A program made the position numbers and the translations under genes. The notes under the pieces were generated by a model that was given only the letters and a program-made list of their open reading frames with translations, ran no database searches and was not told the DNA's origin. A stretch of 64,000 nucleotides of DNA from positions 1 through 64,000 of the forward strand of contig JAQQAI010000052.1 of NCBI GenBank assembly GCA_028532915.1, given 5' to 3'. The DNA is from Sphaerochaetaceae bacterium. GTDB lineage: Bacteria > Spirochaetota > Spirochaetia > Sphaerochaetales > Sphaerochaetaceae. This document shows, one piece after another, positions 6,377 through 59,254 of the stretch; within the stretch, counting starts at the first letter, position 1, and each line of letters starts with the position of its first letter.

Positions 6377-6454
6377 CTCGACACATATACTTCAAATAGT
6401 ATCAATAAAGATGGATGTCTTTTTGGAATACGTCAAGTATTATTTTTTGTTTAT

Positions 6455-7054
6455 TCATAAAAAAGTATCAATAATTGAGAGAAATTCTTCATAAGTTGTT
6501 GCAAGAGGAAGATTCGGCTCCTCTTCCAATATACTTTCAGGGGCTCTGAAGAGTGCTCCGCTGTCCGCATTTTTGATCATAGTGAGATCATTATAGGAAT
6601 CTCCTGCTGCGAAAACGGTGAACCCGATCTGCTGCAGAGCCTGAACAGCCTTCCGTTTCCCGTCCTGCTGGCGAAGCTTGTAATCGACGATCATATCGTT
6701 TTCATCGATCACCAGAGAATTGCAGAAGATCGTCGGAAACATGAGCTTTTCCATCAGAGGATGGGCAAACTCGGAAAAAGTGTCACTCAATATGATGACC
6801 TGCGTCTTCTCTCTCAGTGTCTGCAAGAAACTCAAAGCACCATCAAGTGGATCGAGAGTTCTGATAACTTCCTGAATATCTGAAAGTGTCAGACCATGCT
6901 CTTTGAGAATCGCAAGTCGCTGGTTCATAAGAACATCATAATTACTCTCATCCCTCGTTGTCCTTCTCAGTTCGGCAATTTTGGTCTTCTGTGCAACACT
7001 AATCCAGATTTCGGGTACTAAGACCCCTTCAAGGTCAAGACATACTACTTTCAT
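6455..7054 (-). CDS. thrH: bifunctional phosphoserine phosphatase/homoserine phosphotransferase ThrH
   Basis: HAD-superfamily phosphatase of about 199 aa. Motif I is DLEGVLVPEIW near the N-terminus, where the usual DxDxT second Asp is Glu, as in ThrH. Motif II is SDTFSEF and the motif IV region is AAGDSYNDLTMI. ThrH removes phosphate from phosphoserine and can transfer it to homoserine. Length and motif spacing match Pseudomonas ThrH. ATG at 7054 is chosen after a GGAGTAAGG site, although a GTG lies one codon upstream. Confidence 0.88.
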   Translation of the reverse strand: MKVVCLDLEGVLVPEIWISVAQKTKIAELRRTTRDESNYDVLMNQRLAILKEHGLTLSDIQEVIRTLDPLDGALSFLQTLREKTQVIILSDTFSEFAHPLMEKLMFPTIFCNSLVIDENDMIVDYKLRQQDGKRKAVQALQQIGFTVFAAGDSYNDLTMIKNADSGALFRAPESILEEEPNLPLATTYEEFLSIIDTFL

Positions 7055-36318: not shown

Positions 36319-36398
36319 ATTAACCTCTGATGAAAAAATGTTGTTTAGCGGACAGATCACTTGCCATGATACATACCACTCAGATAGTTATCTATAAT

Positions 36399-39244: not shown

Positions 39245-40264
39245 TTAATTGCAGTCAAATACCATATTCTGAAGATTAAGCCATTCGGTTGTCTTCAACG
39301 CTTTAATATTCCTCGACTGAAGCAGATAGAGAATATCATTTTCATACGCCCACTCCACATTCTGAGGATAACTGAAAACTTTCTCAACGCTCAAACCAAG
39401 TTCTCCCAATTCCATAAGCTGATTTTCTGTAAGAGTGCAGTCTGAGATCATATGCCCTTTTAGATCGTATCTCTTTCGGCCGCAGCCTTTCTCATTATCG
39501 ATTGTTATCATAATTTCCTTCGGCATGATCTTCTTCATTTTCACTCTGAGCGGTTTATCCCTACAGAGGACGAAATGATCTGCATTCGCCTCGCCTGACA
39601 CAACCGACTCTCCCAAACCCCAGTTAGACTCTATGATAATCTCACGGCAATTGCCTGTAACCGGATTTGCCGTAAACAACACTCCGGACACATCCGAATC
39701 GACCATCTGCTGAACTATAGGAGCTATCACCCCTCTATCTTGCCCAATATCCTGTTGATGCCTTCTGTAAACTGCTCTAGCGGTATACAGTGAAGCCCAG
39801 CAGTCTCTGATCGCCCCTATGATCTGCCTCTCTCCTTTTATGTACGGAAAAGTATCCATCATCCCGGGGAAAGAGTAGACTGGTGTCTCTCTGACGGAAA
39901 CCGAAGATCTTACGGCCACGAAGGGGTTTTCTCCTCCGTTTTCGATCTGCATTCTCTCAATCTGTTCTTTAAGTTCATTCAGAAGATCACATGGAAGAGG
40001 AGCGGAGCGTATAAGGTCACGTATCATCTCAGATTTTATTTCAATATCATGGTAATCATCAAAATCCATCGCTCTGATGATCTTTCTGATGTGCGGCATC
40101 AGATTATTTACATCCAGAAGATACTCGAGAGATGGCCCTGTTACAGTAAATCCCTTGGGAACTCTGAACCCGTGCCGGGTAAGTTCCCCAAGATTTGCAG
40201 CTTTTCCGCCTGAGATAGGGGCTTCGACTTTTTTCAAATCAGAGATTCTTTTAACATAGTTCAT
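39245..40264 (-). CDS. stand-alone PEP-synthase/PPDK-type ATP-grasp subunit
   Basis: A 339-aa protein equal to only the nucleotide-binding N-terminal domain of PEP synthase. It begins GGKAANLGELTRHGFRVPKGF, then has VAVRSSVSVRETPVYSFPGM, QQMVDSDVSGVLFTANPVTG and the terminal LYLLQSRNIKAL. The phosphohistidine and PEP domains that normally follow are absent. The same layout is found in the 40-kDa subunit of phenylphosphate synthase. Its partners are likely 57575-59254 and possibly 33985-36318. ATG 40264 with AAAGGGGAAAGG is chosen. Operator B lies about 115 nt upstream. Confidence 0.85.
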   Translation of the reverse strand: MNYVKRISDLKKVEAPISGGKAANLGELTRHGFRVPKGFTVTGPSLEYLLDVNNLMPHIRKIIRAMDFDDYHDIEIKSEMIRDLIRSAPLPCDLLNELKEQIERMQIENGGENPFVAVRSSVSVRETPVYSFPGMMDTFPYIKGERQIIGAIRDCWASLYTARAVYRRHQQDIGQDRGVIAPIVQQMVDSDVSGVLFTANPVTGNCREIIIESNWGLGESVVSGEANADHFVLCRDKPLRVKMKKIMPKEIMITIDNEKGCGRKRYDLKGHMISDCTLTENQLMELGELGLSVEKVFSYPQNVEWAYENDILYLLQSRNIKALKTTEWLNLQNMVFDCN

Positions 40265-40380
40265 TGCCTTTCCCCTTTGTGTCATTGACGATCCAGCAGG
40301 TCCGTTCTCAATCAATGCAATCTTTATAAAACAGCCTATTACTGCCGTGCGGAAAGATATCCGTTACCATCTTTTAATCA

Positions 40381-40474: not shown

Positions 40475-40963
40475 TTATTTCTTGTCTGAATTTTCCACCA
40501 TCGAATCAGCGGTCTTCTTCACTGTCTTTATAACCCTGGTATAACCTGTGCAGCGACATAGATTTCCCTCCATGAGCTTTCTTATCTCCTGTTCAGAAGG
40601 ATTTCCATATTCATCGATTATAGCCTTTCCAGTCATAATCATCCCTGGAGTGCAGAAACCGCATTGCACTGCCCCCTCATCGATAAAGGCCTGCTGCAGA
40701 GGATGCAGTTTATCACCGTCCGCCAGTCCTTCGATTGTCAGAATGGTACTGCCGTCAGCTTCAACTGCAAGCATCAGACAGGAATTCACGGGCTTGCCGT
40801 CGACCAGTACAGTACATGCACCGCATTCTCCTTCGTTACATCCTTCTTTCGCACCTGTAAGACCAAGGTCTTCCCTCAGAAATTCCAGAAGAGTCCTGTT
40901 GACAGCTACTTCTCTCACATACGATTCGTTATTGATAGTCAGACTAATCTCTTTTTTATACAT
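40475..40963 (-). CDS. molybdenum hydroxylase, 2Fe-2S subunit
   Basis: Small electron-transfer subunit (162 aa) of an xanthine-dehydrogenase-family enzyme. Plant-type 2Fe-2S ligands are in CNEGECGACTVLVDG with a further Cys in VNSCLML. The second cluster is in QCGFCTPGMIM and CRCTGYT. It passes electrons from the molybdopterin site to FAD. It is the third of three adjacent genes (large, FAD, Fe-S), separated from the FAD gene by 4 nt. The start has AGGAGTAAAG. Confidence 0.93.
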   Translation of the reverse strand: MYKKEISLTINNESYVREVAVNRTLLEFLREDLGLTGAKEGCNEGECGACTVLVDGKPVNSCLMLAVEADGSTILTIEGLADGDKLHPLQQAFIDEGAVQCGFCTPGMIMTGKAIIDEYGNPSEQEIRKLMEGNLCRCTGYTRVIKTVKKTADSMVENSDKK

Positions 40964-40967
40964 TTCT

Positions 40968-41849
40968 TTACTCCTCGATCAGACTCTTGTAGGCGGTTTT
41001 GACAGTACGGGGAACGAGCTGGCGCAACAGAGTGAGCCTGAAATTGCTGTTCGCTCTCCAGCTCGACCGGGGAGAAGCCTCCTCAATTACCAGGTCTCCT
41101 CCCTTTGCGACTGCCTCATTATCAGTCAAATCCTTTCCAATGAAATATTGTTCGGTCTTATGAACACGAATAGGAGTCGGTGCGGAAGTTCCCAATGCTA
41201 TTCTCATTTCTGTACATGTTTTATTATCATCATCAACTTCCAGATAGACGGAGATGTTCAGCAAAGCAATTTCCATAGCATTTCTTCTACCATATTTAAA
41301 ATAGGCCCCTCCGTATCTGGATGCGGGATTTTTCATTCTCACCCGGACGAGAACTTCATCTGACCTCAGAACAGTTCTTTTTGGTCCCGTGAAGAATTCT
41401 GCCAGAGGCACAATCCTCTCTCCCCCAATACCATGAATCACACATTCTGAATTCAGAACAAGCAGAGGGCCGACACCATCTGCGGAGGGAGCCGCAGTGC
41501 AGATGTTTCCTCCGATTGTCCCTCTGTTTCTAACCTGAAGCGAGCCGACTGTTCTGACTCCCTGAACCAGAACCTGATATCGTTCAGTTATGACCGGATG
41601 ACGTTCAATCTCATGATGCGTGACAGCAGCGCCCAGCGAAAGACCTTCCTGTTCTGACCATTCTATTCCCTTCATTTCAGGAATCTTTTTAATATCGATG
41701 ACATGATCATATCTGTGATTTCCATCATGAAGTTTTGCATAGACATCAGACCCGCCGGCAACGATGACACCGGAAGATCCGTACTCCTGCTTCATTTCAC
41801 AAGCTTCTTTGAGAGTAGCCGGTACATGATAATCAAATTTGGCAATCAT
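40968..41849 (-). CDS. molybdenum hydroxylase, FAD subunit
   Basis: A 293-aa FAD-binding subunit of the CoxM/NdhF-type family with IVAGGSDVYAKLHDG and NRGTIGGNICTAAPSADG contacting FAD. The extra four-cysteine 4Fe-4S loop that marks 4-hydroxybenzoyl-CoA reductase is absent, so the enzyme is probably an ordinary hydroxylase/dehydrogenase. ATG 41849 overlaps the stop of the large-subunit gene. The further upstream frame is spurious. Confidence 0.9.
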   Translation of the reverse strand: MIAKFDYHVPATLKEACEMKQEYGSSGVIVAGGSDVYAKLHDGNHRYDHVIDIKKIPEMKGIEWSEQEGLSLGAAVTHHEIERHPVITERYQVLVQGVRTVGSLQVRNRGTIGGNICTAAPSADGVGPLLVLNSECVIHGIGGERIVPLAEFFTGPKRTVLRSDEVLVRVRMKNPASRYGGAYFKYGRRNAMEIALLNISVYLEVDDDNKTCTEMRIALGTSAPTPIRVHKTEQYFIGKDLTDNEAVAKGGDLVIEEASPRSSWRANSNFRLTLLRQLVPRTVKTAYKSLIEE

Positions 41850-44185
41850 TTGCTTTCCTCCATTCGTTTTCTGCATGCCTCGAGAATGGTCTCCGGCTTG
41901 ATGGGAACATGCGTGACAGGGACACCCAGTGCATGCTCCACCGCGGAGGCTACTGCCGATTGAGTAGCGCACATTGCTGGTTCACCGATACCTTTCGCCC
42001 CATAAGGACCTTCGGGATGCGGAGAGGATTCCACTAATCTCATCTCAATCTCCACATCGGTATCCATTGAAGTCGGTATTTTAAAATCGACCATATTTCC
42101 GTTCATCAGATATCCGTCACGATGGATGAACTCTTCGAGCAGAGTGTTGCCTATCCCCATGACGACACCACCTTCAACCTGCTGCAGACATCCCAGCGGA
42201 TTTAATGCCTTCCCGATATCATGCGCAGCAACGACCTTGATAACCTTTGTCTTTCCCGTATCAGGGTCGATTTCGACCTCTGCAGCGTTGGCACCGAAAA
42301 ACCACATCGCAGTCAACCGTTCAGTCTGATACGTCTCCAGATCCGGCTTGTGCCAGATATTGGTCGTCTCATAACTACCATATCCCAGAATCGGTTCTCC
42401 GTTGCGAATGAGTGAATTTTCATCCAGCTGATCCATTCTTGCTGTTCTCCCGGTTGGAGTCCCCTCTGCATCGACTTCAACAAGGATTCCCCCTTTCTCG
42501 AATTTCACAAGGTTCTCTTCAGTATTCCATTTGAATGCAACCCATTTACAGATCTGGCGCTTCACATCAGCCGATGCCTTAATTGCAGCATTTCCAAGGT
42601 GGAATGTCGCCCGGCTGGATGTTGTTGTTTTATCAAGCGGAGTATTCTCCGTATCTACCTGAACGGTGCTGATATTCTCAAGAGGAATACCAAGTTCTTC
42701 ACTGACTATCTGCGGGATGACTATTCCCACTCCCTGCCCTAGTTCTGTCGTTGAGTATGACACGATGGCAGTTCCGTCGAAATTGAACTTGATAGTAACG
42801 GAAGTATATGAAGGAGTTCCTGTGAATTTCATAAAGGTTCCCAGACCTCTTCCACGTATCTTGCCCTCTTTGGTGATCCAGCTGATTGGATGGTCTTTCC
42901 ATCCTATTCCGTCTGCCGCCTCCTGAAGGCATTCTTTCACTCCTACGGAGAACAGAGTCTCTCCGGTAGAGGCCTTGCTTCCGTCAACCATAATATTCTT
43001 CATCCTGATTTCGAGAGGGTCCATACCAAGAGCCTTGGCTAAAGCGTCCATCTGCTGCTCGTGAGCATATGACGCTTCAGCTACTCCGAATCCGCGCTGG
43101 GCTGTTCCAAGCTGTTTGTTTGTGGCGACACAATATCCGTCTGTCTTGATGTTCTTCACCTCATACGGACCTGCGAGAATCACATTTGCTTTAAGTGTCA
43201 CTGTAGGACTTATTGTCGAATATGCTCCGGAATCCCAGTAATTTGTCGACTCGAAAGCAACGATCGTACCATCTTTTTTCGCTCCGGTCTTCATTTTAAA
43301 ATGCACTCCGGCTCTAACGGTACCGGCAAGAAAATCCTCTTCCCTGCTGAACATGACTTTTACCGGCCGACCTTTAGTATGCATTGCCAAAGCAATCGCA
43401 AGCTGTTCTGCCCTGGGCTCGAGCTTACCGCCGAACCCCCCTCCGATCGGAGGAACGATGATTCTGATCTTGTTTTCGGGGATACCGAGAGCTCGTGATA
43501 ATTCACCGCGGATATAGAATGGAGACTGTGCAGGAGACCAAACAGTAATCTTTCCTGAAGCATCGACTTTTGCGGTAGCCATATGATTTTCGATAGCCGC
43601 ATGGTGAAGTATTGCACACTCATACTCATTCTCAACAATGACATCCGCTTCAGCAAAACCTTTTTCTACATCACCTTTACGCAAAGTAAAATGATCATAG
43701 ATGTTAGTCCCGTTTACAGGACGCACTGTCGGAATATGAGGATACTCTTCAAGTTTCTCGTGAACGAGGGGACTATTTTCTTCAACAGCTTCGAGCACAT
43801 CGTTCACAGCAGGGAGCTGTTCGATGTCCACTTTCACTTTTCTTACAGCTTCATATGCCTGCTCCAGGGTATCGGCCGCAACCAGGACGATAGGTTCTCC
43901 CTGGTAACGAACCTTATCAATCGCCAGAAAAGTCTGATCTTGAATAGAACGCCCTATTCTGTACGGAACATCTTTACCAGTCACCACGGCACGGACACCT
44001 TCGACCTCCCAGGCCCCGGAAACATCTACTGACTGAATCTTGCCATGAGGAACTTTACTTCTGTACACTGCCCCATGGAGCATTCCCGTCAATGTTATAT
44101 CACAGCAATACTGAGTCGCCCCCGTCACCTTATCTCTGGAGTCCTTACGCAGCTCGGGCTTTCCAATTACATTGTAATTGTCCAT
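41846..44185 (-). CDS. molybdenum hydroxylase, molybdopterin-binding large subunit
   Basis: A 779-aa catalytic subunit of the xanthine-dehydrogenase/aldehyde-oxidoreductase family. It hydroxylates a carbon using water. Motifs are PPIGGGFGGKLEPRAEQ, AQRGFGVAEASYAHEQQ at the moco-contact region, and GPYGAKGIGEPAMCA with the catalytic Glu. The substrate-pocket residues differ from textbook xanthine dehydrogenase, so the substrate is open; N-heterocycles, aldehydes or aromatic acids are possible. No maturation gene (XdhC/MocA-like) is in the window. The start has GGGAGGAG. Confidence 0.9.
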   Translation of the reverse strand: MDNYNVIGKPELRKDSRDKVTGATQYCCDITLTGMLHGAVYRSKVPHGKIQSVDVSGAWEVEGVRAVVTGKDVPYRIGRSIQDQTFLAIDKVRYQGEPIVLVAADTLEQAYEAVRKVKVDIEQLPAVNDVLEAVEENSPLVHEKLEEYPHIPTVRPVNGTNIYDHFTLRKGDVEKGFAEADVIVENEYECAILHHAAIENHMATAKVDASGKITVWSPAQSPFYIRGELSRALGIPENKIRIIVPPIGGGFGGKLEPRAEQLAIALAMHTKGRPVKVMFSREEDFLAGTVRAGVHFKMKTGAKKDGTIVAFESTNYWDSGAYSTISPTVTLKANVILAGPYEVKNIKTDGYCVATNKQLGTAQRGFGVAEASYAHEQQMDALAKALGMDPLEIRMKNIMVDGSKASTGETLFSVGVKECLQEAADGIGWKDHPISWITKEGKIRGRGLGTFMKFTGTPSYTSVTIKFNFDGTAIVSYSTTELGQGVGIVIPQIVSEELGIPLENISTVQVDTENTPLDKTTTSSRATFHLGNAAIKASADVKRQICKWVAFKWNTEENLVKFEKGGILVEVDAEGTPTGRTARMDQLDENSLIRNGEPILGYGSYETTNIWHKPDLETYQTERLTAMWFFGANAAEVEIDPDTGKTKVIKVVAAHDIGKALNPLGCLQQVEGGVVMGIGNTLLEEFIHRDGYLMNGNMVDFKIPTSMDTDVEIEMRLVESSPHPEGPYGAKGIGEPAMCATQSAVASAVEHALGVPVTHVPIKPETILEACRKRMEESK

Positions 44186-44215
44186 ATTCTCCTCCCTCAA
44201 AACCTCGATTCCCTT

Positions 44216-45109: not shown

Positions 45110-45138
45110 TGCGGCCCGCTTGTTAAAGCCGGGCCGCA
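45110..45138 (-). terminator. GC-rich stem-loop after the HprK-like gene
   Basis: Stem TGCGGCCCG / CGGGCCGCA with an 11-nt loop, 35 nt past the stop of the HPr-kinase-like gene. No U-tract follows, so termination may need a factor. Confidence 0.5.
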
Positions 45139-45172: not shown

Positions 45173-46072
45173 TTATTTTGCTTCAAGAATCTTATCCACC
45201 TCATCAAACAGGATCTGAGGAGTCTTCGATCTGATGAGATAACAGGGAATGTCTCTTACCAGGTCAGCAAGGAAAGCCGCTCTCTTCTGGCGCAGAAAAT
45301 CATTATCGATAATAGGCATTGCTAAACCTTCTTCTCCGGAAAGCAGCTGATTCAACCCCATGAAGTTCATCATTGAATGGTACCCCTGGTAGGCTTTCTC
45401 GAACTGTCCCATAGGAAGCACCTTGGTATCAAAGTGACCATCAATACTGGGTTGGATGATCAGGTCAATCTTGATGGGTTCATTATATGCTTCATATTCA
45501 GGTTCTTTTTCGAAGAATTTCGATACACCTTCATCCTGATCAGGCAGGTCGGAACGTTCTGTTCCTTTCGCTCTGCTTTTGATATAGACATTCTTGGACC
45601 CCAGAATGGCAACTTTATTCTCATCGACGACTGTTGTTTCTGTCGAGAACATCAGACCGCCGCGACGGCAGCCTTCCAGCTGACTCATGCTCTTTCCGTG
45701 ATTATTCTCGCCGCCGAGAAGGAGAATACCCTTGCCCTTGTAGACAACCATCGAGGAATGGAACGGATACAGTCCGACATGGTTCAGTTCCATGGCAAGC
45801 ATACTCACCAGGATCTTGTTGATCTCTCCTTCTTCCCAATAGCCGTCAAGGATCAGCTGCTGGGCAACGAAACTGATATTCTTCTTGGGACGTTCATAAT
45901 TCCAGATAACATCAGCTTTTCCTTTGGAAGGTTCATTATGGACAGTGACCGCTGCCAATCGGTAATTCAGAAATACCGAGTTCTCGACGATCTCTGTCCG
46001 TTTCGGGCCACCGATGACATCAACACGGATAGCTGCATTCGCACATCGAAATTCTGTAGTAAAATAATTCAT
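45173..46072 (-). CDS. HPr-kinase-like P-loop protein of unknown substrate
   Basis: A 299-aa protein with a phosphotransfer P-loop, GGENNHGKS (residues 120-128), preceded by FHSSMVVYKGKGILLLG. That is the arrangement of HprK C-terminal domains and their stand-alone relatives. The capping HPr-recognition helix and the HprK N-terminal domain are not recognisable. It is not next to a PTS gene. It shares the transcript with the MDR dehydrogenase, lactonase and cupin, so it may phosphorylate a small metabolite or a partner protein. AGGAG precedes the ATG. The family assignment is moderate. Confidence 0.65.
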   Translation of the reverse strand: MNYFTTEFRCANAAIRVDVIGGPKRTEIVENSVFLNYRLAAVTVHNEPSKGKADVIWNYERPKKNISFVAQQLILDGYWEEGEINKILVSMLAMELNHVGLYPFHSSMVVYKGKGILLLGGENNHGKSMSQLEGCRRGGLMFSTETTVVDENKVAILGSKNVYIKSRAKGTERSDLPDQDEGVSKFFEKEPEYEAYNEPIKIDLIIQPSIDGHFDTKVLPMGQFEKAYQGYHSMMNFMGLNQLLSGEEGLAMPIIDNDFLRQKRAAFLADLVRDIPCYLIRSKTPQILFDEVDKILEAK

Positions 46073-46107
46073 TCATTGCTCCTTAAATTTATATTTTTTA
46101 GCTGCGA

Positions 46108-47178
46108 CTACAGCTGTGGTTTCATAATCACTTTCAACGAATTGTCTTTTCTTCCGTTGAAGATATCGAAAGCTTTCTCATATTGAGACAAAGGCAGCTC
46201 ATGAGTGATAAGGCGTTTCATCTCCCGTTCGAACTGAGTAGCAAGTGGAATCGCTTTCTCAAGAGTATTCGGATTTGCTCTGTTACCGATAATCTCGATC
46301 TCTTCGAGGACGATTCTTCTCATAGGAAGAGGAATATCTCCTCCAGGCAGACTTACAACAGACACTACACCGCCTTTTGCCACAGAATCGATAGCCTGCT
46401 GAATACCGACTGCCGTACCGGCACATTCGAATACCCGTTTCGCTCCCTTCCCGTTCGTAAGAGCCTTGACCCGTTCGGGAACATTCTCATTTCTATAATT
46501 GATGGGTATTGCACCGAAGTCTTTTGCCACATCCAATCTGAATCCGCTTCCGCTGACCATGATCTTACCTGCACCAAGTGCACGGGCACACAAGATTGCC
46601 ATAAGCCCCTGTCCTCCCGAACCGTTTACGAGCACATCATCACCAGGTTCAATTCTGCTGCGGAGAACCATATGCAATGCAATACTGAGCGGATCCATAC
46701 AGGATGCAACGTTAAAATCCATCTCGTCTGGAATCTTCGCAATTGCTTTTACATTAGTCCTCATATATTGCGCATAAGCACCCTGACTGTAGTGCCCGTA
46801 CTGACGGTGACCGAACTCTTCATGTCCATAGTTGTCACAGAGAGTATATCTTCCTTCCATACACATGGCACAATGCCCGCATCCTACGTGACTGATTCCG
46901 CATACTCTGTCTCCGACCTTCCAGCCGAGGGCTTTTGCACTGTCACCGAGAGTCTCTACCACTCCGGCCCATTCATGTCCCGGAATAAGTGGGAATTTGT
47001 CCGGCCAGAAATTAGGAAAATCTCCATTGATAATATGAGGATCAGTTCCGCAAATTGCTACTGATTCAACCTTACACACGACTTCCATATCTCCGGGAGT
47101 CGGTACTGGTATACTGCAGTACTCCAAATCATGGGGAGCATTCAATCTCACCGCATGCATCATTTCATTCTTCTCCAT
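46108..47178 (-). CDS. zinc-dependent medium-chain dehydrogenase
   Basis: A 356-aa MDR-superfamily NAD(P)-dependent alcohol/polyol dehydrogenase. Catalytic zinc is set by CGTDPH near residue 39 and GHEWAGVVE. Structural zinc is set by GCGHCAMCMEGRYTLC, and the Rossmann motif is GSGGQGLMAI. Relatives act on L-threonine, sorbitol or other polyols. It is cotranscribed with an SMP-30 lactonase upstream, which suggests a sugar- or cyclitol-type alcohol, but this is inference. The start has GGAGG. Confidence 0.88.
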   Translation of the reverse strand: MEKNEMMHAVRLNAPHDLEYCSIPVPTPGDMEVVCKVESVAICGTDPHIINGDFPNFWPDKFPLIPGHEWAGVVETLGDSAKALGWKVGDRVCGISHVGCGHCAMCMEGRYTLCDNYGHEEFGHRQYGHYSQGAYAQYMRTNVKAIAKIPDEMDFNVASCMDPLSIALHMVLRSRIEPGDDVLVNGSGGQGLMAILCARALGAGKIMVSGSGFRLDVAKDFGAIPINYRNENVPERVKALTNGKGAKRVFECAGTAVGIQQAIDSVAKGGVVSVVSLPGGDIPLPMRRIVLEEIEIIGNRANPNTLEKAIPLATQFEREMKRLITHELPLSQYEKAFDIFNGRKDNSLKVIMKPQL

Positions 47179-47229: not shown

Positions 47230-48261
47230 TCAATACCTGTCGTTCCAATGAACCATTGGAAGTCCAGCGACAGGGCTCCTGAAAAAAGGGATCGTGTTTC
47301 CTCGTAAGCATCCGATATATATCGTCGAAAGGTCAGGTCCTCCGAATGTCACACTCGCCATCCATGGAGCAATACCTCTTCCTGTCTCGAACAGAATTTC
47401 ATTGGTCACTCTTTTTTCAAAGAATGCCTCATCAAGTTTTTTCACCTTCTCGCTGTCACCTTCATCAAGAAGAATCTTCAGCTCTCCGTCAGGAGTAAGA
47501 GCAAACAGCTTATCAGAGTAGACCATCGTCCCCCAGAGATTCCCGTATGAATCAAAAGCTATCCCGTCGGGATATGCTCCGGGTCCCAGGCTTGACGGTC
47601 CGAAGATCTCCTTGTTGTGGAGATCACCGTTCGCATCCACTTTATAACGAAGAATGCGTCCTCCGGTGGTTTCCACGACGTACATATATTCCTCGTTCTT
47701 ATCAAAACGAACTTCATTGGTGAAATGGAGACCATCAGCCACTATATGAGCTCCCCGTTCATCGAAACGGATGATGTACCCATCATCAAGATCCGGAACC
47801 AGAGCGTCGAGCCAGTTGGTCAGCCGGGTTGTGACTGTGATCCACAAACGATCTTTCGAATCTCTCAGAACAAAGTTTACTTTACCGATCTTCTTTCCGT
47901 CGACCGTATCCATGAGAACTTTCGTCTCACCTGTTCTTTTCATCACTTCAAGACAGTCGGTGCCGAAGTTAGAAATGAGGATGTCTCCATTTCTGGCAAA
48001 TGCAAGCCCGTTCGGAAGGGTCCCCTCAAAAAAACGGTTAACCTTATTTGTTGCATGATCAAATCCGGCTTCGTGTTTCTGAGTGATGATCGTCTGCGAG
48101 CCGTCACCTTTGATGTGCATCACTCCGCCTCTCGCATCTGCCGCCCACAGGCTACCGTCTTTTTCTGCAAGAATGCATTCTGGACGTTGCAAATCTTCAC
48201 CGATAGTCTTGATCATCTCCGGTTCTAGCGTGAAATCTTTCAAAGGGTTACTTTTCAGCAT
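47230..48261 (-). CDS. SMP-30/gluconolactonase-like beta-propeller hydrolase
   Basis: A 343-aa six-bladed propeller of the SMP-30/lactonase superfamily. It includes the typical LPNGLAFARNGDILISNFG, FTNEVRFDKNEEYMYVVET and GAYPDGIAFDSYGNLWGTM segments with conserved Asn/Asp metal ligands. It probably hydrolyses a lactone made by an adjacent dehydrogenase. It overlaps the cupin gene by 7 nt upstream and is followed by the MDR gene after 51 nt. It has no signal peptide. Confidence 0.86.
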   Translation of the reverse strand: MLKSNPLKDFTLEPEMIKTIGEDLQRPECILAEKDGSLWAADARGGVMHIKGDGSQTIITQKHEAGFDHATNKVNRFFEGTLPNGLAFARNGDILISNFGTDCLEVMKRTGETKVLMDTVDGKKIGKVNFVLRDSKDRLWITVTTRLTNWLDALVPDLDDGYIIRFDERGAHIVADGLHFTNEVRFDKNEEYMYVVETTGGRILRYKVDANGDLHNKEIFGPSSLGPGAYPDGIAFDSYGNLWGTMVYSDKLFALTPDGELKILLDEGDSEKVKKLDEAFFEKRVTNEILFETGRGIAPWMASVTFGGPDLSTIYIGCLRGNTIPFFRSPVAGLPMVHWNDRY

Positions 48262-48653
48262 TCTTCTACTCCTCCATCAAAATCAATTTCAGGATGAAAC
48301 TCATATTCTTCAAGGCTCGTTTTTGGAGCAAAGAAACAGATAACTTTCATCGGAATCTTTCCGCTGTTTCGAACCATATGTATAGAACCCTTCTCGAACA
48401 GGACAGCTGTCCCGGCTTGCATCTTTTTGATTATCCCGTCGACGTAGACTTTGCCTTCGCCTTCGATGATATAGATAAGTTCCTCACCTTCCGGATGAGA
48501 ATGAGCCGGAGAAACCGTGAATCCCGGTTCGACTCTCATCACACAGCTGGAACAGAATTCAGGGTCCAATCCTGTATTATCTTTCGCAATCCACCGAAGG
48601 AACCTTCCGGGAACCTTGGTTTCCTCCACGTCCGTCTCATGTATGATTTTCAC
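48255..48653 (-). CDS. cupin-domain protein
   Basis: A 132-aa single-cupin protein. Likely metal ligands are SPAHSHPEGEELIYI in motif 1 and GSIHMVRN in motif 2. Small cupins of this kind act as isomerases, dioxygenases, epimerases or sensors; the reaction is unknown. It is the first gene of the cupin-lactonase-dehydrogenase-kinase unit and starts at GTG with AGGAGGG, right below the operator/hairpin E. Confidence 0.83.
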   Translation of the reverse strand: MKIIHETDVEETKVPGRFLRWIAKDNTGLDPEFCSSCVMRVEPGFTVSPAHSHPEGEELIYIIEGEGKVYVDGIIKKMQAGTAVLFEKGSIHMVRNSGKIPMKVICFFAPKTSLEEYEFHPEIDFDGGVEEC

Positions 48654-50407: not shown

Positions 50408-51280
50408 TCACTTATTTTCAACAGACATCTTCACTGTCAACTGATCGTATAATGACGCAATATTGTTTTTCGTCACATCATCAAGCATATATTCCTGACC
50501 GATGTCAACAGGAAACCTGTTTGCGAACCCGAGATTCTCAAGACATTCTTCTTTCGTCCACCCCTTCCCCACAGCTACAGCGATCTGAGTGATCCATTCC
50601 AGAAGGAATGCCCTTTGGACATAAAGCTCCTGTTTCGTGCATACGGGACCATGTCCGGGAACGATCACATCGACATCGACTTCTAACAGCCGGTCAATAG
50701 AATCAAACCATGCATTCAGATCGGAAGTATAGAGCCATGTCTGACATCCGTTGAACACAGTATCACCGACAAACATAATTCTCTCTTCAGGCACTACTAC
50801 AGCAAGCTGCCCAGGAGTATGCCCCGGTGTCCATAGGATCTGGAATGTATGATCACCAACTTTCAACTCACTATCCCCATCAAGAATGATGTCAGGTTTG
50901 TTAGGCTTCGAAAAATATGTCTTCTCGTCAGGGAAAAGAGCGGCTCCCTCAGGGTCATCGGTCGGAATAGCCTCTTTGGCATATTCATAGGGATTGATCT
51001 GGGGATATACCGTCATAAAATTATCAAACGTTGCTCTATGAGAGACAATGTGCTCAACCTCGTCAAAATAGTAGTTTCCGAATATATGATCCACATGATG
51101 CTCTGTATTGATCAGATATCTTATCGGTCCGTATGCTCTCGCTTCCTCATACATCGCTAAAGCCTTCGTCGGTAGCTGTGGAGTATCAATCACGACCACA
51201 CCCTCACTTGTTACAACGAATCCTGGATTGCAGCCGCGGATTCTTGTTTCGACAAAAACATTTTCTGATAATTTCTCCAT
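50408..51280 (-). CDS. MBL-fold metallohydrolase of the island
   Basis: A 290-aa metallo-beta-lactamase-fold protein. The usual THxHxDH reads NTEHHVDHIFGN, so the first His is Glu. The other ligands are WTPGHTPGQ, FVGDTVF and PGHGPV. Such enzymes hydrolyse thioesters, lactones or cyclic ketones. The His-to-Glu change suggests altered metal use. ATG 51280 follows AAGGAGG; the longer frame to 51340 is not supported. It lies opposite the GntR gene with operator G between. Confidence 0.85.
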   Translation of the reverse strand: MEKLSENVFVETRIRGCNPGFVVTSEGVVVIDTPQLPTKALAMYEEARAYGPIRYLINTEHHVDHIFGNYYFDEVEHIVSHRATFDNFMTVYPQINPYEYAKEAIPTDDPEGAALFPDEKTYFSKPNKPDIILDGDSELKVGDHTFQILWTPGHTPGQLAVVVPEERIMFVGDTVFNGCQTWLYTSDLNAWFDSIDRLLEVDVDVIVPGHGPVCTKQELYVQRAFLLEWITQIAVAVGKGWTKEECLENLGFANRFPVDIGQEYMLDDVTKNNIASLYDQLTVKMSVENK

Positions 51281-51474
51281 ATCATCCTCCTTCTTTGATG
51301 AGACTAAACTGTATGATTTGATCTTCACTCGAGATACCACCGGTTTCCGGGACTCTCTTTTGATTCACTAAAGAGAATTTTTTCAAATCTCATATTTTCG
51401 AGAATCTTCTCAAATGCCGTATATATGTTTTGTATAACTATAAATGTAAATCACGATTAATACAAGTTCTTTTA

Positions 51475-51575: not shown

Positions 51576-52271
51576 ATGGCTAAAAATGTAAACAGCAGAC
51601 CTGGTCTCATCAAAAAGGTACTAAGCGAACAGATAAAAGAACAGCTGATGGAAGATCTGCTGAATAAAAAATACAAGGCAGGAGACCGCCTCGTAGAGAG
51701 CGCTATAGCGAGAGAATTCAATGTCAGTCAGGCACCGGTCAGAGAGGCAATCAAGAGCCTTGTTGAAATGCAGCTTTTAGATTTCGAACCGTACAAAGGT
51801 ATCACAGTGAGATCTTTCACAACAAAAGATCTGTACGAAGTCTTTGAAGTCCGTGCATCTTTGGAATCGCTCGCTGCATCGCTTGCCGCCACCAATATCA
51901 CCGAACACGAAATAAATAAATTAGAGAGCATTCTGGAAAAAATGCTTGACTGCGCGCAACGAGATGATGTGGTCAACAGGACATCCTATAACAATCAATT
52001 TCACGACGTCATCATTAAGGCCTCCGGAAATAAGCTCATTCAGCGGCTTTCAAACAATCTTAGATTCGCGTCTTGGTCACACACTTCAGGTGCGATCACC
52101 AGCATGGATCCGATACAGATTGCCAAACGGCATACCCTCATCATCGAATCATTACGAAGCGGAGATCCCGAAAGGGCCGAGAAAGTCATGAAATCTCACA
52201 TCCTTTCTTCTCTCGAAGGTCTTGTAAAGAAACTCGAAGAAGAAGAAAGACTGCAGCAAGTTTCGGAATAA
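51576..52271 (+). CDS. GntR-family regulator, FCD (FadR) subfamily
   Basis: A 231-aa regulator with an N-terminal winged helix (LVESAIAREFNVSQAPVREAIKSL) and a C-terminal all-helical FCD ligand domain (VFEVRASLESLAASLAA, NNQFHDVIIKASGNKLI, RHTLIIESLRSGDPERAEKV). FCD domains usually bind an organic acid with a divalent metal held by Asp/His residues, and those are visible here. It is the only regulator in the island and the likely reader of the nine operator copies. It ends 4 nt from the convergent isomerase gene. Confidence 0.92.
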   Translation: MAKNVNSRPGLIKKVLSEQIKEQLMEDLLNKKYKAGDRLVESAIAREFNVSQAPVREAIKSLVEMQLLDFEPYKGITVRSFTTKDLYEVFEVRASLESLAASLAATNITEHEINKLESILEKMLDCAQRDDVVNRTSYNNQFHDVIIKASGNKLIQRLSNNLRFASWSHTSGAITSMDPIQIAKRHTLIIESLRSGDPERAEKVMKSHILSSLEGLVKKLEEEERLQQVSE

Positions 52272-53085: not shown

Positions 53086-53318
53086 CTTCTTCCCTTTCCA
53101 TCTTCAACCACACCAGTACCCGAGATATTCTTCAGATTTTTTTCCGGTAGAAGATTTTTAGTCATCTTTTCCCGTGCGTATAACCACACATCGGATATTC
53201 GCAGAGATGAAGAATTCTTCATTTTTGAAGCCTTTCTTCTAAATACCAGAAGCATAGTGGCTGCAAAAGACCATATCAATAATACAATGAAGAGTGGAAG
53301 AAGATATTTAGTGATCAT
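53064..53318 (-). CDS. small single-pass membrane protein, candidate decarboxylase subunit
   Basis: An 84-aa protein with one N-terminal membrane helix (LLPLFIVLLIWSFAATMLLV) and a basic cytoplasmic tail. It overlaps the carboxyltransferase stop by 4 nt and the isomerase start by 22 nt. Position and size fit an OadG/MmdG-like accessory subunit of a membrane decarboxylase, but the Ala/Pro-rich linker typical of that family is absent. The assignment is by context only. Confidence 0.55.
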   Translation of the reverse strand: MITKYLLPLFIVLLIWSFAATMLLVFRRKASKMKNSSSLRISDVWLYAREKMTKNLLPEKNLKNISGTGVVEDGKGRRCWNRLH

Positions 53319-54862
53319 AACGGCATATTCCCGTGTTTCTTCTCAGGACGATTCTCCACCTTGTTTGAAAGAGATTCGACCGAACGGATGAGAGACGAAC
53401 GAATCTCTGTGGGATCAAGAATCGTATCGACCATGCCAGAGGAGGCGGAGATGTACGGATTCGTAGATTTTCTTTTCAGCTCTTCAATTTTCTCCAATCT
53501 GGTCTGATTCGGATCAGAAGACTGTGCGATATCTTTACGGAAGATGATGTTTGCAGCACCCTCGGCACCCATCACAGCTATCTCGGAAGTAGGCAGAGCC
53601 AGGACTCTGTCATAGCCCAAAGAACGGGATGCCATTGCGATATATGCGCCGCCGAAGGCTTTCCTCAGTACGACCGCGATCTTCGGGACGGTCGCCTCAC
53701 CGATTGCATACAGCATCTTTGCTCCATGCCTGATTATTCCGCCGAACTCCTGCTTCGTACCGGGCATATATCCGGGAACATCCACGAAGGTTGTCACCGG
53801 AATATTGAAGGCATCACAGAATCTGATAAACCGGGCCCCTTTATCACTGCTGTCGATATCGAGTGTACCCGAGAGAAAACGGGGTTGATTTGCCACGATT
53901 CCTACTGTTCTTCCTGCCAGACGGGCAAAACCGACGACTATATTCTGTGCAAAATCTTTCTGTACCTCCAGGAAAGAATCCTTGTCGAACAATTCCTGAA
54001 TCACAAGATGTACATCATATGCCTTGGTAGATTTCTCACCCATGATCTTTTCTATTATCTGTGTAGATTCCGGAGGATCGGCAGGATCCGCAAGCGGCGG
54101 AATCTCCATGTTATTCAATGGAAGATATGAAATCAGTTTTCTCAGATGAGCGAATGCACTCTGCTCATTCTCATGTGTAAAATGGATATTTCCACTTTTC
54201 TTTCCATGAGCTTTAGCTCCTCCGAGTTCCTGATGGGTCACTGACTCACCGGTGACAGCTTTGATCACATCAGGGCCTGTGATATACATCTGACTGATCG
54301 AATCAACCATATATATAAAATCGGTGAGTGCCGGAGAGTATGCTGCTCCCCCGGCACAAGGCCCCATAATCAGTGAAAACTGGGGGATTACCCCGGAGGC
54401 CAGAATATTGTTTCTGAATATTTTCCCGTAACCGTCAAGAGAATATACTCCTTCCTGAATCCTGGCACCACCGGAATCATTGATCTGAATGAAAGGTGAT
54501 TTAGTTTCAATTGCTTTCTGCTGAACTCTGGCGATACGTTCGGCATGCTGTTCACCAAGCGATCCGCCGAGCACCGTGAAATCCTGGCTGGAAATCCATA
54601 CCTGCCGCCCTTCGATAAGTGCAGTACCGGTAACGACTCCGTCCCCGTAGAACCGTTTTGATTCCATATTGAATTCTGTAGCTCTGCAGGTCATGAAGGA
54701 ATCGAACTCTATGAAAGAACCTTCATCCACCAACTGTTCTATTCGTTCTCTGGCAGTGAACTTTCCTTTAGCATGTTGAGCTTCGACTTTTCTTGGGTCG
54801 CCACCTGACTCCATTACATTCTTTATCGATCTGAGCTGTTCAATTTTTTCCAAATTTTCCAC
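53315..54862 (-). CDS. acyl-CoA carboxyltransferase subunit (MmdA/PccB family)
   Basis: A 515-aa carboxyltransferase of the propionyl-CoA carboxylase beta/methylmalonyl-CoA decarboxylase alpha family. It shows GGSLGEQHAERIARVQQKA, the N-terminal oxyanion glycines NDSGGARIQEGV, MGPCAGGAAYSPA, and the C-terminal half RKAFGGAYIAMASRSLG. It moves CO2 between biotin and an acyl-CoA. No biotin carboxylase, biotin carrier or decarboxylase beta subunit lies nearby, so its partners are elsewhere. Start GTG with GAGGTG. It follows the acylating aldehyde dehydrogenase. Confidence 0.9.
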   Translation of the reverse strand: MENLEKIEQLRSIKNVMESGGDPRKVEAQHAKGKFTARERIEQLVDEGSFIEFDSFMTCRATEFNMESKRFYGDGVVTGTALIEGRQVWISSQDFTVLGGSLGEQHAERIARVQQKAIETKSPFIQINDSGGARIQEGVYSLDGYGKIFRNNILASGVIPQFSLIMGPCAGGAAYSPALTDFIYMVDSISQMYITGPDVIKAVTGESVTHQELGGAKAHGKKSGNIHFTHENEQSAFAHLRKLISYLPLNNMEIPPLADPADPPESTQIIEKIMGEKSTKAYDVHLVIQELFDKDSFLEVQKDFAQNIVVGFARLAGRTVGIVANQPRFLSGTLDIDSSDKGARFIRFCDAFNIPVTTFVDVPGYMPGTKQEFGGIIRHGAKMLYAIGEATVPKIAVVLRKAFGGAYIAMASRSLGYDRVLALPTSEIAVMGAEGAANIIFRKDIAQSSDPNQTRLEKIEELKRKSTNPYISASSGMVDTILDPTEIRSSLIRSVESLSNKVENRPEKKHGNMPL

Positions 54863-54895: not shown

Positions 54896-56305
54896 CTATC
54901 TGCGCTCGCGTACTTCCTGAGAAAACAGATCCTCATCTTTAGGCTGTTTGCTTTCAATAGGGAATGATACCCATGTTTTGTTAATCAGATGCTTCCATGT
55001 GACATTTTCACTGCTGATATTACCGCCCCAGGTTCCGCATCCGAGCGTCAATGTCACGGGCATTCCGTTAGTCCATGCGCCACTGTTTGAAAGGCTCTGC
55101 GGTTGATTTACCATAACTCTTGAAACTCTGACTTTGCTCGCCAGCTCAATCGCCCTTTCACGATTTGCCGTATGGATACCACATGAGTGTCCGGCACCAC
55201 TGAATTGAGTGATTCTGTTGACCAGGTCGACAGCATCAGCAAAAGAATCCCACTTGTAAAGTGTAATCACTACGGATAGTTTTTCACCACTGAACGGGAA
55301 CCGCTCTCCGACACCGACCTCTTCGACCATGAAAAATTTCTTCCCTTCAGGAAGATCTATATCTGCGACTTTTGCGATCTTGTCGGCACTCTGGGCAACA
55401 ACTTCACGATTTAATGTATGCCCGTCAGGCCACATTGCTTTCTGAAGCTTCTCTTTCTCTTCAGAATTAAGAAGATAGCCACCTTCCGCTTCCATTGCTT
55501 TGATGAATTCATCGTACACTTTCGATTCTACAACAGCTCCATTTTCGCTGGAACAACTTGTAGCCTGATCAAAAGTCTTCGACCGTCTGATTTTTTCTGC
55601 AACGACCTTCATATCCTGAGTATCATCAACGATTGTCACAGCATTTCCGGCACCTACACCGTAAGCAGGAGTTCCGCTCGAATATGCGGCAGCTACCATA
55701 CCGGGACCGCCTGTGGCAAGAATGAGATCACACTGAGCCATCAGCTGCTGGCTGTTCTCCAAAGACACTTTTGACATATTGATGATAAGGTCTGGATTAT
55801 ACCCGTAACTCTCAATTACACCTCTCATCATGTTCACTACTTTTTCATTGGTCTTCTGTGTTCTCGGATGGGGAGCCATGATCACAGCATTTCTCGTTTT
55901 TAATGTCCAGGCAGCTTTAAGAACAGGAGTAGCTTCACAGTTGGTACAGGGAACGAGTGCTCCGATAACACCCACAGGTTTTGCGATACAGACAAGGTTA
56001 TTGACATGATCCTCTTCAAGGATACCGACCGATTTCTGTCCTTTCATATCAAACCAGCCGCCTCTGCTTTTGGTCATCATCTTCGCATATTTACTTTCAA
56101 CATCTCCCATTCTGGATTCCTGTACAGCAAGCTCGGCCAATTCTCTGGCAAATTCGGGCTGAAGGGCGTTCCAACAGATTGCTTCGGCAAGAGCGTCCAC
56201 CTCTTTCTGTGAAGCGAACTCAATACTTGACTGTGCTTTTCTTGCCCGTTCTATGAGTGTAGCAACGTATGCTTTTGCCTCATCTTTTTTATTCTCTTCA
56301 ATCAT
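54896..56305 (-). CDS. CoA-acylating aldehyde dehydrogenase (EutE/SauS-like)
   Basis: A 469-aa NAD(P)-dependent enzyme that converts an aldehyde plus CoA to acyl-CoA. The catalytic Cys is in FDQATSCSSENGAVVE, and the cofactor glycine motif is ATGGPGMVAAAYSSG. The C-terminal LGCGTWGGNISSENVTWKH is typical of the acylating EutE/AdhE-N/sulfoacetaldehyde dehydrogenase group. The substrate is undecided. With the next gene being a carboxyltransferase, malonate or methylmalonate semialdehyde is a reasonable candidate. AAAGGAG precedes the ATG; operator H lies 45 nt upstream. Confidence 0.88.
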   Translation of the reverse strand: MIEENKKDEAKAYVATLIERARKAQSSIEFASQKEVDALAEAICWNALQPEFARELAELAVQESRMGDVESKYAKMMTKSRGGWFDMKGQKSVGILEEDHVNNLVCIAKPVGVIGALVPCTNCEATPVLKAAWTLKTRNAVIMAPHPRTQKTNEKVVNMMRGVIESYGYNPDLIINMSKVSLENSQQLMAQCDLILATGGPGMVAAAYSSGTPAYGVGAGNAVTIVDDTQDMKVVAEKIRRSKTFDQATSCSSENGAVVESKVYDEFIKAMEAEGGYLLNSEEKEKLQKAMWPDGHTLNREVVAQSADKIAKVADIDLPEGKKFFMVEEVGVGERFPFSGEKLSVVITLYKWDSFADAVDLVNRITQFSGAGHSCGIHTANRERAIELASKVRVSRVMVNQPQSLSNSGAWTNGMPVTLTLGCGTWGGNISSENVTWKHLINKTWVSFPIESKQPKDEDLFSQEVRERR

Positions 56306-57574: not shown

Positions 57575-59254
57575 TCAGAGAATGGTTACTACTCCATTGT
57601 CCCCATCTACACGGATTCTATCGCCAGTTTTAATTTCCCGTGTTGCACTTCCTGTCCCTACTACTGCCGGAATCATAAATTCACGAGCAACAACAGCAGA
57701 ATGGGAAAGCACACCACCGGAATCGGTGACAATACCTGTAATCTTGGAGAATACAACAACCCATGCAGGATTCGTCATAATACAGACGATAATCTCTCCA
57801 CGTTTCACATCATTGAACTCGGCAGGGCTTTTGACAATACGGGCTGTTCCCTCTACAACTCCCGGAGAACCTCCGAGCCCCTGGATGGTTCCTTTCACCT
57901 TTTCATCCTGTTCTCGTTCAAACTTCTCAGGATATCCCCACAGAGTATGGTACGGTTCTTCATACATATTAGCCTGTGTCACAGTACCGACCCAATCACG
58001 GGGGGTTATTGATCTGGCTTTTTCAAGCTCGACTTTCGCATTGGCAATGATTTTTTTGCCAGGATAGTTTTCAGGATCAGCAACATAACGTCGAAGCTGT
58101 TCGTATTCGAGACACATAATATCTTCAGGATCATCCAGAAGATCCATTTCAACCATCTTCCTTGCAACACGGAGGAGAACCACACGCATTCTTGCGTAAG
58201 TACCCTGATCGAAATAGAAGTGATGATCAGGAGTAAGAGGCAGCATAGCTAGATTCAGGGCAAGAGCATCTTCAAATCTCTTCTTATCCTCATCACTTCT
58301 GTCTTTGATCTGATCCCGCAGGTACGCTATTGCACGATCCTGTTCGTTGATACATTTGTTGTAAACATCATGGTAGTCAAAGTTGGTGGCAAGATAGCTT
58401 CTGATCTGCTCAAGAATAGGTTTCTGATCCTCGATATAGAGTGGGAATACGTATTCATGAGTATAGATTGCTTTATAACCGAATTCTTTAGCATATTCAA
58501 ATACATCATCCAGGAATTTCTTCCCTGCTTCAGTTTTTTTGAGTTCTGATTCAATGACTGCAGAATCCTCATTTCCTTCAAAGATCTTTTTCAATTCCGG
58601 TATCGTCTTGACTTCTTCTTTGAGCTGATAAAGAGCTTTCAGGCTGTCCCAGTTTCTATCTTTGCGTGACACATTCACTTTACCTAACAGATCCTGATCC
58701 ACGTTACCGATAAGCTCGTTGACAACAGTGTTGAAACCGATAGAAGATTGGAACTGAGCCCAGTTCAATACCCAATGGAGTCTGAAATGTCTTTCCTGAA
58801 TATCGATCATCTCTTCAAGATGAATCATAAGCTCCTGAAGTGTCTTTTTCGAAGGATCATATTCATCAATGTATTTGAAGTTCGTGAATACTTCAGGCAG
58901 GTAACGATTTTCCCACCACTCCAAAAAGTTAGTAGCATAGGTCGGCATGATCCAGTTATAGTATTTTGCCGTCTGATCTGAATCAACTTTGTCACGACCT
59001 TCGATCGCAGTATACACATACCCGTTGATTCTTTTTGCAGGCCAGGCTACACCTGTCGGCACGTCAAATCTTCTGAACAGGTATTCACATGTCGGCCCCC
59101 ACCATCCGTCCAAGCTGAAATACATCGGTGAAACAGGGAAGGGAACGTGATTGTCATCAAAGAACCAGAAAAGAGATTTCTCTTTCTCGTCTTTCCATTG
59201 CACAGGAAAACTATCATCACCCAAAAATTGGGCGAGAACTTTTGAATTATCCAT
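57575..59254 (-). CDS. phenylphosphate-synthase/rifampin-phosphotransferase-like subunit with C-terminal phosphohistidine domain
   Basis: A 559-aa protein. A large helical N-terminal domain (about 1-460) corresponds to the substrate-binding domain of such dikinases. A C-terminal swivel domain follows (GLGGSPGVVEGTARIV, then DSGGVLSHSAVVAREF with His518). It lacks an ATP-grasp domain and the PEP TIM barrel. The separate ATP-grasp protein at 39245-40264 supplies the missing part. The known relative transfers the beta-phosphate of ATP to an organic hydroxyl. AAGGAGG precedes the ATG; operators I and J lie upstream. Confidence 0.82.
   Translation of the reverse strand: MDNSKVLAQFLGDDSFPVQWKDEKEKSLFWFFDDNHVPFPVSPMYFSLDGWWGPTCEYLFRRFDVPTGVAWPAKRINGYVYTAIEGRDKVDSDQTAKYYNWIMPTYATNFLEWWENRYLPEVFTNFKYIDEYDPSKKTLQELMIHLEEMIDIQERHFRLHWVLNWAQFQSSIGFNTVVNELIGNVDQDLLGKVNVSRKDRNWDSLKALYQLKEEVKTIPELKKIFEGNEDSAVIESELKKTEAGKKFLDDVFEYAKEFGYKAIYTHEYVFPLYIEDQKPILEQIRSYLATNFDYHDVYNKCINEQDRAIAYLRDQIKDRSDEDKKRFEDALALNLAMLPLTPDHHFYFDQGTYARMRVVLLRVARKMVEMDLLDDPEDIMCLEYEQLRRYVADPENYPGKKIIANAKVELEKARSITPRDWVGTVTQANMYEEPYHTLWGYPEKFEREQDEKVKGTIQGLGGSPGVVEGTARIVKSPAEFNDVKRGEIIVCIMTNPAWVVVFSKITGIVTDSGGVLSHSAVVAREFMIPAVVGTGSATREIKTGDRIRVDGDNGVVTIL

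Follow-up and report, generated by a model that had tools for sequence, protein, structure and literature searches.

The locus and its genes

The window is the whole stretch of DNA analysed, 64,000 nt of a contig from a Sphaerochaetaceae bacterium. It carries the gene under study, P0001, on the reverse strand, together with the following features.

45173..46072, reverse strand: P0001, a short protein of predicted PEPCK fold, 299 aa with an ATG start (open reading frame list, alignments, models and fold searches)
46079..46084, reverse strand: AAGGAG, the likely ribosome-binding site of P0001 (read from the sequence)
46108..47178, reverse strand: MDR zinc dehydrogenase, ending 35 bp before P0001 and probably in the same operon
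47230..48261, reverse strand: SMP-30/gluconolactonase-type lactonase (Pfam, open reading frame list)
48255..48653, reverse strand: cupin, with a 7 bp overlap with the lactonase gene
50408..51340, reverse strand: metallo-beta-lactamase-fold hydrolase (MBL), in the conserved neighbourhood
51576..52271, forward strand: GntR/FCD regulator, in the conserved neighbourhood
57575..59254, reverse strand: DikC, dikinase partner with a C-terminal phospho-His domain (PEP-utilizers; His518)
39245..40315, reverse strand: DikN, stand-alone dikinase ATP-binding half (PPDK_N; profile matches, neighbour in related loci)
40475..44200, reverse strand: molybdenum hydroxylase, three subunits of XdhA/B/C type
45110..45138, reverse strand: strong RNA hairpin just 3' of P0001, a possible transcript end without a clear T run
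44919-44891, reverse strand: promoter-like site, 11 of 12 matches, before the phosphoesterase and Mo-hydroxylase genes

The AAGGAG motif lies 6 nt before the start codon of P0001, and an overlapping open reading frame on the opposite strand (45377-46186, forward) is taken as a shadow. The hairpin and the promoter-like site occupy a 378-bp gap 3' of the gene. An 88-nt stretch with the hairpin has a z of -5.06, and none of 200 shuffles was equally stable; the hairpin scan lists part of 45110-45138 in a total of 5, near the shuffle mean of 3.2. The promoter-like site is weak on its own, because the promoter scan total (9) is close to the shuffle level (6.2, sd 2.4). Given this gap and its contents, a cupin-lactonase-MDR-P0001 unit probably, though not with certainty, ends with P0001, and a new unit holds the phosphoesterase and Mo-hydroxylase genes. 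The first-pass annotation had P0001 cotranscribed with cupin, lactonase and MDR dehydrogenase; these three genes do lie upstream on the same strand, and cotranscription is judged from their spacing.

The same annotation described an HPr-kinase-like protein in a setting without a PTS and with no HPr gene nearby. The locus indeed lacks HPr, since the sole PF00381 (HPr) match in the source genome falls on another contig, C34. The genome itself is not HPr-free: C34 carries canonical HprK (5.8e-66, with PF02603) and HPr (2.8e-27), with ∼75 bp between them. As this canonical pair is present, P0001 is not the HPr kinase of the genome.

Two further regions of the window are recorded as observations. 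At 33985-36360 (reverse strand) lies a gene for a 791-aa PPDK-like protein without the ATP-binding half, of which residues 44-552 match PPDK positions 360-864, with ∼240 C-terminal residues beyond. At 53315-54862 (reverse strand) a carboxyltransferase (MmdA-like) gene adjoins the gene for a SauS-like acylating aldehyde dehydrogenase (54896-56305); both are also found in locus L003.

A conserved and sporadic family

Relatives of P0001 are encoded at 25 loci in named genomes, at 51-87% identity. Record names point to Spirochaetes, Oscillospiraceae/Oscillibacter, Lachnospiraceae and other Clostridia or Bacillota. Of 26 sequences, 23 make up alignment A1 (the truncated L025 was set aside, as were L008 and L010, which hardly differ from L009), and alignment A3 has two more, giving a total of 25. 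Across these 25 sequences, which include the two divergent members L043 and L044 (∼45% identical), 63 columns are invariant and full-length members are similar in length. The open reading frame is therefore more than a product of chance.

The distribution is sporadic, with the gene in 2 of 139 genomes of its own family and in 3 of 398 from the phylum to which L009 (Oscillibacter valericigenes strain An860) belongs, the genome of L009 counted. The latter search yielded the divergent L043 and L044. Searches for relatives gave no match in plasmids and none in phages; in viral contigs, 116 stretches fitted a pattern, and none of them was a relative. Two weak matches from its own phylum were set aside, L028 as an HprK-related protein and L029 as a short match with two internal stops. 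A search of open-licence papers returned none treating this family by title or abstract start. Collectively, P0001 belongs to a real, conserved and uncharacterised branch of the PEPCK/HprK fold group.

Predicted fold

Cheek et al. 2005 (PMC1079889) group HprK with PEPCK in a single kinase family. AlphaFold models of P0001 (pLDDT 87.4) and of L043 (pLDDT 87.9) were compared with known structures; the two proteins are ∼45% identical and share most of an alignment, so the models are not fully independent. In the P0001 model, P-loop residues 122-124 have a pLDDT <50. For both models the top Foldseek match is ATP-PEPCK (E 3.1e-7 for P0001, 2.1e-7 for L043), rows 1-36 are ATP-PEPCK chains bar one Euglena supercomplex chain, and HprK appears from rank 37. 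For the PEPCK chains Foldseek gives modest TM-scores (0.39-0.50 by query, rmsd 7.7-11.1 A), as would suit a PEPCK that is partial and remodelled.

With VIA-align, Thermus PEPCK is matched by 249 of 299 residues of P0001 (Z 13.2, 4.4 A, chain 97-455) and by 248 of 294 residues of L043 (Z 12.6, 4.6 A, chain 97-452), the match covering both models from first to last residue. Comparison of P0001 with E. coli PEPCK entries gives Z 10.9 to 12.1, and with HprK Z 11.0 over 126 residues (3.5 A), from residue 100 on; in one Mycoplasma HprK chain, 131 aligned residues span 12-299. By Z, HprK thus ties with E. coli PEPCK, and what separates the two is the aligned length. Of the fold-search matches listed, none was identified as an HprK-related (A/B type) kinase, an absence that is uninformative.

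The models make a PEPCK-type fold highly probable. P0001 is predicted to be a short PEPCK-fold protein without the first ∼95-115 and the last ∼75 residues of PEPCK. The HprK-like character noted in the first-pass annotation holds as far as membership of the HprK/PEPCK fold group goes; taken from end to end, P0001 is predicted to have the fold of PEPCK, and likeness to HprK is mainly confined to the C-terminal half. An unrelated P-loop family was not found in the profile and fold comparisons with HprK and PEPCK-like folds.

Profile comparisons

P0001 matches no Pfam family at E<=1, including PF01293 (ATP-dependent PEPCK), PF07475 (HPr kinase/phosphorylase) and PF02603, which agrees with the earlier remark that HPr-specific parts are not seen. 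With phmmer it has no PDB match at E<=10. Its best NCBIfam match is an HPr-kinase-related model (E 0.071), and it reaches none of the curated cut-offs. Judged by best E-values, no family member passes a Pfam cut-off either. PF01293 (cut-off 26.5 bits) matches nine of the 25 members at E<=1, the best being L044 with 21.6 bits (E 1e-4), and PF07475 (cut-off 33.3 bits) gives weak matches at E<=1 in eight (best E 0.052). NCBIfam results for the 23 members of A1 are mixed, with NF003883 (HPr-kinase-related) in 10 (best 0.0026), pckA in 6 (0.011) and HprK in 5 (0.026). Matches of single sequences are thus insufficient to tell PEPCK from HprK.

Against the PDB, family profiles find PEPCK chains weakly (best E 0.09 for A1 and 0.016 for A3), and with A3 an HprK chain follows (E 0.36). 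Aligned by hhalign, family and PEPCK share 55 columns that run from a W..GE..K motif through a helix and an HSS strand to the P-loop (A1: P 5.7e-5, prob 66; A3: P 2.7e-6, prob 89). A forced full-length hhalign alignment to PEPCK was untrustworthy outside this core, and no residue equivalences were taken from it. L044 is closer to PEPCK and reads WYQGEIQK and SGESNSGKT. The canonical HprK of the genome aligns over 87 columns with P 4.7e-4, by P no better than the control, an ABC ATPase from the window (P 3.9e-4, 19 columns). The HprK-related L028 is a better match to the catalytic half (P 2.2e-5, 134 columns) than canonical HprK, and L044 matches the HprK model TIGR00679 with E 0.0037. Judged by these profiles, the catalytic half is intermediate between PEPCK and HprK-related kinases, and the part before it resembles PEPCK.

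Active-site positions

The motifs and residues that align with functional positions of PEPCK or HprK are as follows.

45815..45838, reverse strand: W79-E80-E81-G82-E83-I84-N85-K86, aligned with PEPCK TWYGGEMKK (hhalign)
45758..45760, reverse strand: His105, opposite PEPCK His232 (hhalign), invariant in 25 of 25 sequences
45689..45715, reverse strand: Walker A/P-loop GGENNHGKS, residues 120-128 (read from the sequence)
45629..45646, reverse strand: STETTV, residues 143-148, with T144-E145 opposite the HprK Asp-Asp pair (hhalign)

Both features cited in the first-pass annotation as HprK-like, GGENNHGKS and the preceding FHSSMVV, are present, the latter as residues 104-110. The metal ligands of PEPCK are Lys213, His232 and Asp269, the first Asp of the HprK Asp-Asp pair is the catalytic base, and PEPCK also has Asp-Asp at that position. 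Entry titles in the PDB among the fold matches name PEPCK mutated at R65, Y207, K213, S250, K254 and D269. K86 and H105 align with the ligands Lys213 and His232, which we take to be in E. coli numbering; K86 is Lys in 24 of 25 sequences and Arg in one. E145 is probably the metal-site Glu, a placement that comes from alignments to HprK and not to PEPCK, its match to Asp269 running only via HprK. In the P-loop, G126 and K127 are invariant (25/25), and S128 is conserved in 24 with Thr in one. T144 and E145 are likewise found in all 25 sequences and stand opposite Asp-Asn of L028.

Likeness to ATP-dependent PEPCK thus comprises the predicted fold over the whole length, the W..GE..K helix, the His ahead of the P-loop and the P-loop itself. 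The differences are substantial. P0001 has ∼300 residues versus 530-540 in PEPCK; the Arg65-bearing N-terminal segment is absent, the alignment beginning near residue 116 of the E. coli enzyme or residue 97 of the Thermus enzyme; the PEPCK P-loop GLSGTGKTT is replaced by GGENNHGKS (SGESNSGKT in L044); and E80 occupies the position of Tyr207, where 23 of 25 members have Glu, one Phe and one Tyr. The loss of both PEPCK ends and of the GLSGTGKTT signature could suggest a degraded or non-catalytic PEPCK remnant. This is hardly credible, as the P-loop and active-site positions are strongly conserved in 25 sequences from two phyla and full members keep a similar length.

With HPr kinase/phosphorylase (PF07475, TIGR00679), P0001 shares a C-terminal half of ∼125 residues, the P-loop and the strand before it, but it lacks the PF02603 domain, a nearby HPr gene and the Asp-Asp pair, replaced in the family by Thr-Glu. 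An identity of P0001 as HprK was rejected on the missed PF07475 cut-off and the missing PF02603 and Asp-Asp. HprK-related kinases A/B and lasso-peptide HprK-like kinases (TIGR04352, TIGR04355) resemble P0001 in size, and 134 columns are shared with L028, whose best models are these two, both below cut-off. Unlike them, P0001 has no match to TIGR04352 or TIGR04355 at E<=1, and L028 lacks the W..GE..K motif (read from the sequence). L044 matches TIGR04355 with E 0.0045 and L043 matches TIGR04352 with E 0.17, below the 200-bit NCBIfam cut-off of the A/B kinases. By the likeness of its catalytic half to L028, P0001 may act on a protein or peptide. HprK-like kinases acting on peptides are described in PMC7533575 and PMC13381572, which keeps the protein-substrate reading alive.

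Presence of PEPCK was also surveyed. The source genome gave no ATP-PEPCK match, and PF01293 matches occur in nine of 17 carrier genomes searched, two being fragments and one very divergent; the P0001 family hence does not simply replace PEPCK. Separately, a very divergent PEPCK-like protein of 562 aa (L039 1201-2886; PF01293 E 2.7e-21) is encoded in the genome of L013.

Gene neighbourhood

In 27 related loci, which contain the near-identical sets L008/L009/L010 and L023/L025 and so represent fewer independent cases, the gene lies directly behind DikN in 12 and behind MDR in 11, together 23, with gaps of 17-101 bp measured between tblastn matches. Of the others, in L012 the gene is preceded by SMP30 and followed by MDR, and in L004 it follows a split transketolase; in L044 two genes separate it from an upstream DikN, and L025 starts at a contig end. 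XdhA and XdhB are each found in 21 loci, XdhC, DikC and GntR in 20, MBL in 19, DikN in 18, MDR and SMP30 in 13 and cupin in 10. The dikinase halves, 17 kb apart in the window, are neighbours in 15 of the 27.

Genes for one or more Mo-hydroxylase subunits occur in 22 loci. Among the remaining five, L015, L016 and L023 cover ∼4 kb, the L022 sequence stops 3.2 kb past the gene, and the 19.9 kb of L044 show a presumed AOR-type protein and a presumed Fe-S protein in place of the hydroxylase. The recurrence of the Mo-hydroxylase, which extends to the dikinase-less L004 and L012, and the AOR-type protein adjoining the gene in L044 would suit an ATP-dependent maturation or insertion factor for the Mo/W enzyme of the operon. 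Such a role is quite improbable: in 23 of 27 loci the gene stands right behind DikN or MDR and not beside the hydroxylase genes, and we know of no role of the PEPCK fold in Mo/W enzyme maturation.

Several observations concern the surroundings. The regions L044 4061-10084 and L051 3835-10811 carry the same dikinase pair with presumed AOR-type (tungsten enzyme-like) proteins and an Fe-S protein, once without P0001. A further gene family occurs near the cluster in eight Clostridia loci (L007, L008, L010, L013, L014, L017, L026 and L027), and its L017 member (6189-6971) is a PHP-domain protein between GntR and DikC. Aromatic (phenol/aniline-like), sugar-acid and sulfo-sugar names for the pathway were weighed against the genes present and abandoned, as the evidence was insufficient.

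Association with a split dikinase

Twenty carrier genomes from 28 loci or records were searched for the dikinase halves (L008, L010, L014, L016, L018, L025, L026 and L027 were left out). DikN was found in 16, DikC in 17, both in 15 and neither in two, G496 and G502, which are MAGs and possibly incomplete. Among the 139 genomes of the own family, two have DikC, and these are precisely the two with the P0001 gene. In the 398-genome sample, DikC matches at E<=1e-40 occur in 10 genomes. Four of them, all 3 carriers included, show 47-53% identity (E <1e-100); the other six, with 25-29% identity and E values of 1e-58 or worse, were left out of the count of DikC orthologues. Co-occurrence exceeds chance (Fisher 3.8e-5 without the seed genome, with the cut of E <1e-100 set after the list was seen). 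Genome G697, not among the carriers of this sample, has the dikinase pair and two AOR-like proteins, with no P0001 in the 18 kb read. The association between dikinase and P0001 is strong, yet neither strictly needs the other, as G496 and G502 show no dikinase and the stretch of G697 shows no P0001.

Such data bear on a regulatory protein kinase/phosphorylase that would switch the pathway by phosphorylating a Ser/Thr in the phospho-His subunit of the dikinase, in the way that HprK phosphorylates HPr. The co-occurrence, the frequent position right behind DikN, the catalytic half resembling HprK-related kinases (with L044 matching TIGR00679) and the peptide-phosphorylating HprK-like kinases reported in PMC13381572 speak in its favour. 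Against it stand the dikinase-less carriers, the G697 dikinase on a stretch without the gene, the replacement of the first Asp of the HprK pair by Thr in 25 of 25 sequences, and the canonical HprK signal that equals the ABC ATPase control, though over 87 versus 19 columns. Two of 20 carriers without dikinase argue against a dedicated dikinase regulator. The proposal of the first-pass annotation that P0001 regulates the dikinase complex is thereby weakened, and we consider it unlikely, though the most probable of the alternatives.

Proposed function

The reading we favour, with some confidence, is that P0001 is a small-molecule ATP phosphotransferase, more likely than a kinase of HPr, with ATP use, metal site and substrate type inferred from fold and gene context. 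A small-molecule kinase had already been suggested in the first-pass annotation and emerges here as the likelier of its two proposals. P0001 would found a distinct family of ∼300-residue metal-dependent ATP phosphotransferases with a PEPCK fold. ATP would be bound at the P-loop (K127 and S128), and K86, H105 and probably E145 would form a second metal site. The phosphate acceptor or donor would be a small intermediate, carboxylate or enol-type, in an anaerobic catabolic route that includes a Mo (or W) redox enzyme as well. For many members the partner would be a split dikinase with the layout of phenylphosphate synthase, and P0001 would probably act one step upstream or downstream of what the dikinase makes. 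Phenylphosphate and phenylphosphoamidate synthases resemble the dikinase of the operon in layout, having two separate subunits, one with phospho-His. A split dikinase with a separate phospho-His subunit is described for phenol and aniline activation in PMC7500099.

Provided that the genomes of the carriers without dikinase are complete there, a regulator of the dikinase would leave these carriers unexplained, and an enzyme serving only an MDR-lactonase branch would not account for the Oscillibacter loci without these genes nearby. An intermediate common to both fits best. Some points go against the phosphotransferase, namely the missing Arg65 region, the replaced Tyr207, the NCBIfam results that lean to HPr-kinase-related models and the likeness to L028.

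A bolder reading, very improbable when taken as a whole, is a two-stroke, ATP-driven carboxylation built from parts of the PEP node, with P0001 as a PEPCK-like carboxykinase for a non-PEP substrate. The split dikinase would make an enol or aryl phosphate from a ketone or phenol-type substrate, and P0001 would carboxylate that phosphate, making ATP from ADP.

Significance

The P0001 family adds a compact branch of ∼300 residues, ∼55% of the length of PEPCK, to a fold group in which PEPCK serves metabolism and HprK serves regulation. Its gene marks the genomes of Clostridia, with many animal-gut records, and of Spirochaetes that have an uncharacterised catabolic pathway. If its substrate is found, the family could show how this fold passed between small-molecule and protein phosphorylation.
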